Positions 12,435 through 15,041 of a DNA stretch of 64,000 nt are shown in pieces. The DNA comes from Verrucomicrobiales bacterium (GTDB lineage Bacteria > Verrucomicrobiota > Verrucomicrobiia > Verrucomicrobiales > DEV007): contig JARGOD010000018.1 in NCBI GenBank assembly GCA_029210205.1, positions 1-64,000 on the forward strand. The letters are read 5' to 3'. Every line of letters begins with the position of its first letter. The stretch's first letter is position 1. The position numbers and the translations under genes are program-made. Under the pieces are notes generated by a model. That model saw only the letters and a program-made list of their open reading frames with translations, was not told the DNA's origin and searched no databases.

Positions 12435-13397
12435 ATGCAGCAAAAGTCTTCACTATCCTCACTCACCGGTCGACGCGACTTCTTTCGTTCGAGCAGTCTA
12501 CTCGCGGGGGGAGGAGTGTTGCTCGGCTCCACTTCTGCGAAGTCGGAAGTAGAGCCCGTCGACAAAACCTTCAAGCTCTGCCTCAACATGTCGACGATCC
12601 GGGGTCAGGAACTCGATGCGGCTGAGGAGATTGAAGTGGCTGGAAAGGCCGGGTATGACTCCATTGAGCCGTGGTTTCGTCGCATCAATGCCTATGTTGA
12701 GGGTGGTGGATCGCTCAAGGACTTGAAGACAAGGATCGACGACTATGGGCTCACTGTTGAAAGCGCGATTGGCTTTGCTCCCTGGGCGGTCAGTGATGAG
12801 GCGCAGCGTGCGGCAGGCCTTGAGGAGGCGAAACGTGATATGGATACTCTGGCCCAACTGGGCGGAGTAAGAATCGCAGCCCCTCCGGCAGGAATCAAGA
12901 AGGGTGAGGTCGTAGATCTCGACGATGTCGCGGACCGGTATCGTGCCCTTCTTGAGCTTGGCGATGAAATGGGGATCGTTCCTCAGGTAGAAATGTGGGG
13001 AGGTCATCCGACGATTGGCACGGTGGAAAAAGCTCTCTATGTGGCAATCCGCGCCGGACATCCAAAGGCTTGTTTCCTTGGAGATGTCTATCACACCTAC
13101 AAAGGCGGATCTTCCTTCGATTCAATTCTTCTCATGGGCCCGCAAGCGTTGCAGGCCTATCACATGAATGATTATCCAGCTGATCCTCCCCGCGAGACGA
13201 TCAAAGACTCTGATCGTGTTTTCCCCGGTGATGGAATTGCTCCGATTTCCTCCATTCTGAAAAAGTTCAAAGCGGTGGGTGCATACCCGGCCTTATCGCT
13301 TGAGCTTTTTAATCAATCATACTGGGAAATGCCGGCTCTTGAGTGTGCAAAGCTCGGCCTCGAGAAAATGAAAAATGCGGTAGCTGCCGCGTCCTGA
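12435..13397 (+). CDS. Tat-exported sugar isomerase/epimerase-like TIM barrel
   Basis: This 320-residue protein belongs to the xylose isomerase-like TIM-barrel superfamily (sugar phosphate isomerase/epimerase, hydroxypyruvate isomerase group). The N-terminus carries a twin-arginine signal, GRRDFFRSS followed by a hydrophobic LLAGGGVLLG segment, so it is likely folded and cofactor-loaded before export. Barrel elements include AGYDSIEPWF near strand 1, the metal-region PQVEMWGGHPTIG, CFLGDVYHTYKGG and LSLELFNQSYW, each contributing likely Glu/Asp/His metal ligands. Paralogues of this type are abundant in PVC bacteria and often sit by oxidoreductases for unusual sugars. The substrate is unknown. 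Its stop lies one base from the convergent methyltransferase stop. Confidence 0.82.
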   Translation: MQQKSSLSSLTGRRDFFRSSSLLAGGGVLLGSTSAKSEVEPVDKTFKLCLNMSTIRGQELDAAEEIEVAGKAGYDSIEPWFRRINAYVEGGGSLKDLKTRIDDYGLTVESAIGFAPWAVSDEAQRAAGLEEAKRDMDTLAQLGGVRIAAPPAGIKKGEVVDLDDVADRYRALLELGDEMGIVPQVEMWGGHPTIGTVEKALYVAIRAGHPKACFLGDVYHTYKGGSSFDSILLMGPQALQAYHMNDYPADPPRETIKDSDRVFPGDGIAPISSILKKFKAVGAYPALSLELFNQSYWEMPALECAKLGLEKMKNAVAAAS

Positions 13398-13398
13398 G

Positions 13399-13977
13399 TT
13401 ACCGTTCGCAACGATAGACAAACGCAGGAGGAAGATTCCTCCACGCTGTGGGGCTTTGCTCGACGGTGGAAAAGTGCTGCTTCAGGTATTTGCGGAATCG
13501 CTGTCCTGCCGGAAGGAGAAGTCCCTGCCAATAGGCAAACGTCGCGAACTGCCCGCCTTTGGGAAGGACTTCGAACATCGCATCGAGGAATTCATCCTGA
13601 ATCTCTGACGAAAAAGAAGCCCATGGGAGGCCGCAGACGATCGCGTCCACTTTCGTAATGCCGGCTTCTTCGCAAATAGCGGCAACGCGGCTCACGCAAC
13701 TCTCGTGGAGGTCGACTCCGGGGCAGCGGTTGCGGGTAATCTCTGCAAGAACAGGATCTCTTTCGATGGCAAAAAAATTGCCGCCCGGTTTGAGATGACT
13801 CTGCACCGCTTCCGTGAAAACTCCGGTTCCGGCTCCAAATTCGACAACGCAGTCGATCGAGTCCCAGTCCATCCACTCAAGCATGAGGGCTGCCAGTTCC
13901 GGCGAGCTCGGGGCGACCGCGCCAACCTGCCCTGAGTTTCGCAGGAAAGCGCGGAAGAAGTGACGATGGTGCGACAT
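13399..13977 (-). CDS. SAM-dependent methyltransferase, phospholipid methyltransferase-like
   Basis: This 192-residue class I methyltransferase shows motif I in VVEFGAGTGVFTEAV, the acidic ribose-binding residue in FFAIERDP, and motif IV as VDAIVCGLPWASF. The pattern is close to the PmtA/rRNA-dimethylase-like group; phosphatidylethanolamine methylation is the most common role of that group, and the N-terminal FFRAFLRNSGQVGAVAPSSPELA fits. The start codon overlaps the stop of the upstream kinase-fold-like gene by one base (TGATG), a coupling arrangement. Substrate cannot be fixed; a lipid or a product of the upstream protein are both possible. Confidence 0.75.
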   Translation of the reverse strand: MSHHRHFFRAFLRNSGQVGAVAPSSPELAALMLEWMDWDSIDCVVEFGAGTGVFTEAVQSHLKPGGNFFAIERDPVLAEITRNRCPGVDLHESCVSRVAAICEEAGITKVDAIVCGLPWASFSSEIQDEFLDAMFEVLPKGGQFATFAYWQGLLLPAGQRFRKYLKQHFSTVEQSPTAWRNLPPAFVYRCER

Positions 13978-15041
13978 CAGGATTCAGTTTTAGAAACGGA
14001 GACGTCCAGATTCATTTGGACGAGATCTCCCATTGTCTCGCAAGCTGAGAAAGCGGTTGTCTCATGATATTCGTTTAGGCCTTCGCGCAGAGAGAGGATG
14101 TGTTCTGCCGGCGCGATATCATCCGGACGCATCGTTCTCCAGAAATCCTTGAGTCGGTTATGGGCCAGTCTGATCCGGCGGTCCATGAGGGTGCGTTCCT
14201 CGTCCTGATACTGTCGCATTGTCTTGTAGTTGATGCGTTCAGTGCAAAGTCCCACCGCCTGAGCATTCTCCTCAAAAAACTGCGGAAGATACATCTTGGT
14301 GTATCCCATGTAGCTCTGCTGATCGAAGTCAATCGCGCGGACACGATACTGGGCGTCTTCGAAATCGGGTGTGATGTCGACGACGTAATTGTAGCTTCTC
14401 ATGTCACCTAACAATCGCATGAAACTACGTTCGCTGAACTTCACGAACTCCTTCGCAACTCGAACCAAATTTGTGTCCTCACGCTCAAAGTAGTCGCGGA
14501 TGAAGATGTCGCCGGGCACCCCTGCAATATGCTCTTCGATAAGGGTGTCGCCATTGACGAGGTAGTTGATCCGGTTGGGTGAAAGAATGTGCTCCAGCTC
14601 AAGTCCGTAGATACGCGACGCATCTGCGATCTTCACATAGAAGTGATCGTAGTTGTCATTGTATTGGTTCACGATACGAACACGGAAAGGGCGGGAATTT
14701 CCGAATTCGCAGAAGTCGACCCGCTCCATGATGAGGTGCTCACTGACCCTTACGTCGTTAGTTTTAATGAGAGAGTAAATCCGGATGAGCTTTTCGCTCA
14801 TCTCTTCCCGAATCGAGGGCTCGTAGTGAGCGGTCTTCCAGAGAGTATCGTTGCCCTCGCGGTCGAAGAGGGGATACAAAGCCGAGTAGCGATGCAGGTC
14901 ATCGTAGACAACCGGAATATCGAGCGAGCGCTGGTAGTTGCCCAGATACTCACCGAGCAGTTCACTGACCGGGTAGAACTTTTTCTTTTTTAGAATAACA
15001 CTCACGTTTTTCCCCGGGTTCAGTGAGCTACGTTCGGTCAA
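13977..15041 (-). CDS. Unknown protein with protein-kinase-like (PKL) fold signature
   Basis: I do not recognise a named family for this 354-residue cytoplasmic protein, but it carries an ordered set of kinase-fold features: K137 in FYVKIAD as a VAIK-like lysine, acidic E148/E150 in YGLELE as a C-helix glutamate, a hinge-like TLIEEHIAGVPGD (166-178), the catalytic-loop pattern LGDMRSYNYVVD with D213 and N218 at the D-x4-N spacing, and IDFD (D238, D240) in place of DFG. This order and spacing match aminoglycoside-phosphotransferase and HipA-type kinases. It is translationally coupled to a methyltransferase and lies 24 bases after a D,D-carboxypeptidase gene. A sugar, lipid or envelope-related phosphotransferase is possible. 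The N-terminal 120 residues are an extra domain of unknown kind. Confidence 0.5.
   Translation of the reverse strand: MTERSSLNPGKNVSVILKKKKFYPVSELLGEYLGNYQRSLDIPVVYDDLHRYSALYPLFDREGNDTLWKTAHYEPSIREEMSEKLIRIYSLIKTNDVRVSEHLIMERVDFCEFGNSRPFRVRIVNQYNDNYDHFYVKIADASRIYGLELEHILSPNRINYLVNGDTLIEEHIAGVPGDIFIRDYFEREDTNLVRVAKEFVKFSERSFMRLLGDMRSYNYVVDITPDFEDAQYRVRAIDFDQQSYMGYTKMYLPQFFEENAQAVGLCTERINYKTMRQYQDEERTLMDRRIRLAHNRLKDFWRTMRPDDIAPAEHILSLREGLNEYHETTAFSACETMGDLVQMNLDVSVSKTES

Follow-up and report, generated by a model that had tools for sequence, protein, structure and literature searches.

A gene on the reverse strand of the window (the whole 64,000-nucleotide stretch of a Verrucomicrobiales contig analyzed here) probably encodes an ATP-dependent phosphotransferase that is active, cytoplasmic, and made of a single domain. 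The protein would represent a new family of the protein-kinase-like (PKL) superfamily, isolated in sequence, and the solved folds nearest to it, judged from a predicted model, are the PI3K/PI4K/PIKK kinases. We put the probability of this reading at about 0.68. An earlier note on this DNA had described a kinase-fold protein that belongs to no named family, and this description holds: no member of a set of 48 homologues has a meaningful match in Pfam or NCBIfam, the model has a kinase fold, and the catalytic residues are conserved. With 44–60% identity across two phyla, an intact active site, and no Pfam, NCBIfam, or PADLOC model, the family may stand for a basic phosphorylation step overlooked by annotation pipelines.

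A Conserved Start Codon and an Almost Invariant Predicted Active Site

The longest open reading frame, which begins with TTG, occupies positions 13977–15041 (-) and has 354 codons. Comparison with homologues places the conserved start at a GTG at 15005, the TTG at 15041 being only an upstream in-frame codon. Because the homologues begin at the GTG, the protein is 342 residues long, and residue numbers are 12 lower than those counted from the TTG, such that K137, E148/E150, D213, N218, and D238/D240 become K125, E136/E138, D201, N206, and D226/D228. The open reading frame of the earlier note and its motifs (K137, E148/E150, D213-x4-N218, and IDFD at 237–240, all in TTG numbering) are exactly present; its protein length of 354 residues needs correction. 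The features of the locus are collected in Table 1.

Table 1. The orphan kinase gene, its predicted active-site motifs, and the adjoining gene (positions in the window)
Feature	Position	Strand	Basis and remarks
PI3K-like orphan kinase gene	13977..15005	(-)	342 aa, GTG start; open reading frame, homologue comparison, AF2 fold, PI3K/PIKK structural matches
P-loop-like motif F101-G-N-[S/T]-x-P106	14688..14705	(-)	N103 and P106 in 85/85, G102 in 84/85; between strands 91–98 and 107–113 of the model
K125, predicted strand-3 ATP-phosphate lysine, within K-x2-D128-x2-R131	14631..14633	(-)	K125, D128, R131 in 85/85
E138, C-helix (helix 129–141 of the model)	14592..14594	(-)	85/85
Catalytic loop G200-D201-M202-[R/H]203-x-x-N206	14388..14408	(-)	G200, D201, M202, N206 in 85/85
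Predicted metal-binding motif D226-F227-D228-Q229	14319..14330	(-)	D226, F227, D228 in 85/85; Q229 in 84/85
SAM-dependent methyltransferase gene, OlsG/PmtA-like	13399..13977	(-)	192 aa; NCBIfam; 1-base overlap with kinase stop; genus-level partner only

Conservation was assessed in two dereplicated sets (less than 85% pairwise identity), one of 48 homologues and one of 85, the latter formed by adding further Bacteroidota sequences and reaching down to 44% identity. Among the 48 homologues 69 positions are invariant, and these include every kinase position that had been named earlier except E136, which is near-invariant. In the larger set K125, D128, R131, E138, G200, D201, M202, N206, D226, F227, and D228 are found in all 85 sequences and E136 in 83, and position 203 is arginine in 77 and histidine in eight. 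Thus, the strand-3 lysine, C-helix glutamate, catalytic D-x4-N, and metal-binding aspartate typical of PKL kinases are all in place in each of the 85 homologues. Conservation of the lysine, the D-x4-N pair, and the two late aspartates had been proposed as a check on the kinase assignment, and all five residues passed it without exception. Such strict conservation of the kinase residues in both sets means that the resemblance to kinases is not due to chance.

We consider it improbable that the protein is a pseudokinase or a PKL enzyme that carries out a reaction other than phosphorylation, such as AMPylation. Other chemistry is known from several PKL families (PMC10870513), and M202-R203 and D228 depart from the PI3K motif, but the catalytic K, E, D, N, and D positions are all invariant, unlike those of typical pseudokinases.

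A Family Isolated in Sequence

Profiles for aminoglycoside phosphotransferases (APH), choline kinases, and fructosamine kinases in Pfam and NCBIfam, as well as the HipA_C and HipA_N profiles, matched none of the 48 members. The PI3_PI4_kinase profile (PF00454) likewise matched none of them and found nothing in 113 genomes of the class, including the source genome. The family is recognized by no PADLOC model, and PHROGs returned two weak matches, both of unknown function, that give it no name. Plasmids, phages, and viral contigs yielded no match to the family, and sequence and profile searches of the PDB yielded neither a relative nor any kinase. KINtaro describes 72 PKL families (PMC10870513). 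Our search of the literature found no description of the orphan kinase family, although an unnamed family is hard to search for.

We also scanned viral contigs for the pattern GDRHxxN...HIDFG as a seed for a PI3K profile to be used in HMM-HMM comparison. The scan returned only one short phage kinase-like protein and was dropped. With LGDRHNGN and HHIDFG, that protein (L206, 7049–7720 (-), 223 residues) seems kinase-like and compact, its catalytic motifs being of the PI3K style.

A Predicted Fold Resembling PI3K-Type Kinases

An AF2 model built from the 48-row alignment was a confident kinase fold (pLDDT 90.6, pTM 0.90) forming one compact unit, which bears out the kinase fold that had been claimed and for which structure prediction had been suggested as a check. 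The model is bilobal, the arrangement that defines the PKL superfamily. When the whole model was compared with the PDB by Foldseek, 140 chains were found at E ≤ 0.001; the best 50 of these are all kinase-fold proteins, with Vps34 at rank 1 (E 3e-6). We then aligned the model with VIA-align to Foldseek's top 1000 PDB chains and considered the best 50 rows, all of which were PI3K/PI4K/PIKK kinases. The best was Vps34 (Z 13.3, 268 residues aligned, rmsd 4.3 Å), followed by Tel1/ATM (Z about 13), PI4KIIIb (12.4), p110g (12.0), SMG1 (11.8), and mTOR (11.7). The best match of the model in BFVD is a giant-virus PI3K.

Residues 86–342 modeled alone, with the N-terminal 85 residues removed, gave a pLDDT of 90.7 and a pTM of 0.86. 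Again the best 50 VIA-align rows were all PI3K/PI4K/PIKK kinases (best Z 11.3, 218 residues, rmsd 3.8 Å), the match in human Vps34 spanning residues 584–858. In the Foldseek E-value order for this core, ordinary protein kinases come first, and so the preference for PI3K depends on the second aligner. Because PF00454 is blind to the family and the PDB profile searches found no kinase, the proposed kinship to PI3K depends on comparing folds, and the fold of the protein is a predicted one.

The earlier note had assigned the first 120 residues to an extra domain, a view that the model does not bear out, as the chain forms a single compact unit and most alignments to PI3K-type kinases start at residue 14–19. 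Removing the first 85 residues leaves the PI3K-type matches in place, which suggests that the N-terminus is an extension of the N-lobe and not an unrelated domain.

The signature had been ascribed to APH- or HipA-type kinases. The part of this claim that survives is the APH-like GDM[R/H]xxN and IDFD; the part that finds no support is the nearest kind of kinase, the best 50 rows being filled by PI3K/PI4K/PIKK chains for both whole model and core. APH and HipA chains are not among the best 50 VIA-align rows for either, and HipA chains are also not among the best 50 Foldseek rows for the whole model, though either may still be the nearer kind. The protein could be a small-molecule kinase of the APH/choline-kinase type, acting on a hydroxylated metabolite and only superficially like PI3K. 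We judge this rather doubtful. The GD-[hydrophobic]-[R/H]-xx-N loop and the IDFD agree with the APH and choline kinase patterns, and an APH-type chain, corramycin phosphotransferase (8agy), stands at Foldseek rank 47 for the whole model. Against this, none of the 48 members matches a Pfam or NCBIfam profile of these kinases, and PI3K/PIKK chains occupy all of the best 50 VIA-align rows with and without the N-terminus. The motifs point both ways. The P-loop proline, K-x2-D-x2-R, GD-x4-N, and IDF appear to agree with the PI3K motifs in order and spacing, as does the place of the proline some 19 residues ahead of the lysine. GDM[R/H] and IDFD lean toward APH rather than toward the GDRH and IDFG of PI3K.

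As a minority view, the enzyme may be a protein kinase comparable to HipA or the PIKKs, one that would phosphorylate a conserved cytoplasmic protein. The PIKKs Tel1/ATM, SMG1, and mTOR reach Z scores near those of the lipid kinases, and 55 positions are near-invariant among the 85 homologues, extending well past the active site, a strictness that suits a protein partner. On the other hand, the loci that we examined hold no conserved partner gene, there is no HipA_C match, and the segment after the DFD is short.

Neighboring Genes and Candidate Substrates

The stop codon of the kinase gene (TGA, 13979–13977) shares one base with the ATG (13977) of the methyltransferase gene, an overlap that had been pointed out before and is evident in the sequence. 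The methyltransferase resembles the lipid N-methyltransferases OlsG and PmtA along its full length, with scores far under the curated cut-offs (104.8 bits against OlsG, NF041658, cut-off 350; 56 bits against PmtA, cut-off 250), and hence it is a relative and not an equivalog of these enzymes. Of the 26 named loci with at least 70% identity, 24 have it directly downstream of the kinase gene (L076 and L084 are the exceptions); none of the more distant loci, outside the genus, does. Thus, the coupling to a methyltransferase that had been claimed is upheld within the genus, where the link may matter, and fails beyond it. Convergent to the methyltransferase gene, at 12435–13397 (+) of the window, lies a gene for a xylose-isomerase-like TIM-barrel protein with a Tat-like N-terminus (GRRDFFRSSSLLAGGG).

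Genes for an S11 peptidase (D,D-carboxypeptidase) and a TPR protein adjoin the kinase gene only here and in the two nearest relatives (L060 and L061), and the cell-envelope pathway that had been proposed from this adjacency is therefore unsupported. A Pfam scan of thirty immediate neighbors at other loci revealed no common theme: at some thirty loci these include anthranilate-synthase-type, chitinase, amidohydrolase, aldolase, RuvC, Maf, and CinA proteins, among others. With unrelated neighbors at these loci and a methyltransferase that is local to the genus, we rejected an envelope operon; the kinase gene has no stable partner.

A further proposal is a lipid kinase of envelope metabolism that works with the OlsG/PmtA-like methyltransferase, which we think unlikely. 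It would fit the PI3K and PI4K fold neighbors, which are mostly lipid kinases, and the resemblance of the gene product adjoining at 24 of 26 close loci to lipid N-methyltransferases; it fits poorly with the lack of that neighbor at every locus outside the genus and with a protein that has no recognized membrane-targeting domain. Nor does inositol synthase (MIPS, PF01658) lend it support. MIPS was present in six of the 80 genomes of the class that carry the family and in 20 of the 206 that do not, showing no association, and was not found in the source genome (86.6% complete). A home-made inositol lipid is accordingly unlikely as the substrate. We also considered COX1 as a marker of aerobic respiration and set it aside: by our count it occurs in 79 of 80 positive genomes but also in 158 of 206 negative ones, and genus g4 (see below) is without both the gene and COX1, so that COX1 is uninformative.

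Distribution and Descent

We surveyed genomes of relatives, of the class Verrucomicrobiia, of the phylum Verrucomicrobiota, of Bacteroidota, and of Fibrobacterota. The gene was present in 42 of the 57 relatives. It occurred in 80 of 286 genomes sampled from the class, 49 of 240 from the phylum, and 80 of 296 from Bacteroidota, and was rare in Fibrobacterota (one of 60). It is chromosomal, and nearly always a genome has one strong match or none. The only clear diverged second copy is in a Bacteroidota genome, G427 (C31:94201–95220, E 8.6e-146, and C3:105233–106210, E 2.0e-112). In G585 a short broken remnant (C1:3158148–3158407), in two pieces with stop codons, suggests gene loss in progress. 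Within the order of the source organism, the listed members of genus g4 in family f2, about 20 genomes of 2.2–3.5 Mb, lack the gene, which other genera of that family carry.

In a tree of the family most Bacteroidota stand apart from most Verrucomicrobiota, with three label changes as compared to 25 in shuffles. We read this as mainly vertical descent with a small number of probable transfers. Rows from four Verrucomicrobiota families (f17, f29, f39, and f44; L050 and L191–L196) sit on the Bacteroidota side, possibly reflecting an old transfer between the phyla. Conserved as it is across two bacterial phyla, the protein looks like a real housekeeping enzyme.

Proposed Mechanism and Substrate

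For the activity, the roles in metal binding, and the substrate, we infer the following. ATP would lie between the lobes, beneath the FGN[ST]xP loop, with its phosphates touched by K125, itself held by the helix that bears E138. Magnesium would be bound by N206 and D226 and probably also by D228. D201, as the catalytic aspartate, would bring the acceptor hydroxyl into position, and the arginine or histidine at 203 would stand in for the histidine of the PI3K GDRH and the APH GDLH.

The gene stands alone, is nearly always single-copy and is chromosomal, and its product has a short stretch after the DFD and no recognized targeting domain. On these grounds we favor a housekeeping substrate that Verrucomicrobiota and Bacteroidota have in common. 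We would expect a soluble metabolite or a protein before phosphatidylinositol, although the preference for protein or metabolite is weakly grounded. We offer tentatively, as less likely than the main reading, the further idea that within the PI3K/PIKK branch the family forms a never-named bacterial lineage of housekeeping enzymes, conserved in these two phyla, with a non-phosphoinositide substrate of its own, and an outgroup to the eukaryotic PI3K/PI4K/PIKK kinases. If the placement in the PI3K branch is right, Vps34/ATM/mTOR-type kinases would have a small relative in bacteria, and a bacterial ancestry for them would become testable.

Comparison with Known Kinases

The PI3K/PI4K/PIKK kinases (PF00454; Vps34, PI4KIIIb, p110, ATM, mTOR, and SMG1) are the best VIA-align matches of the model, both across almost the full chain and when the core is compared by itself, and are thus nearest in fold as predicted, at about 10% identity. 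We do not file the orphan kinase under PF00454, because the profile does not detect it and the GDRHxxN loop and IDFG of PI3K are absent, their places being taken in all 85 homologues by GDM[R/H]xxN and DFD. It also differs from these kinases in the short stretch after the DFD and in being without helical, FAT, or C2 domains. With the APH/choline-kinase family it has in common the GD-[LM]-[HR]-xx-N loop, IDF[DE], and the PKL fold, but it is set apart by the profile searches and by a long N-terminal part of the predicted N-lobe (residues 1–90). With HipA-type kinases (PF07804) it shares the PKL fold, the D-x4-N, and the metal-binding aspartate; it differs in matching no HipA_C profile and in having no conserved partner gene at the loci examined. 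The Caulobacter ceramide kinase CpgB was rejected as a parallel, its LCB5/DAG-kinase domain being of a different family (PMC10331486). Finally, LepB, AnkK/OpiA, and MavQ of Legionella and Francisella, which we compared by description, are likewise bacterial proteins and are described as PI kinases with a PKL fold (PMC9758233). These effectors are secreted and act in host cells, whereas the orphan kinase is encoded on the chromosome, by a conserved gene found in bacteria that live in many habitats.
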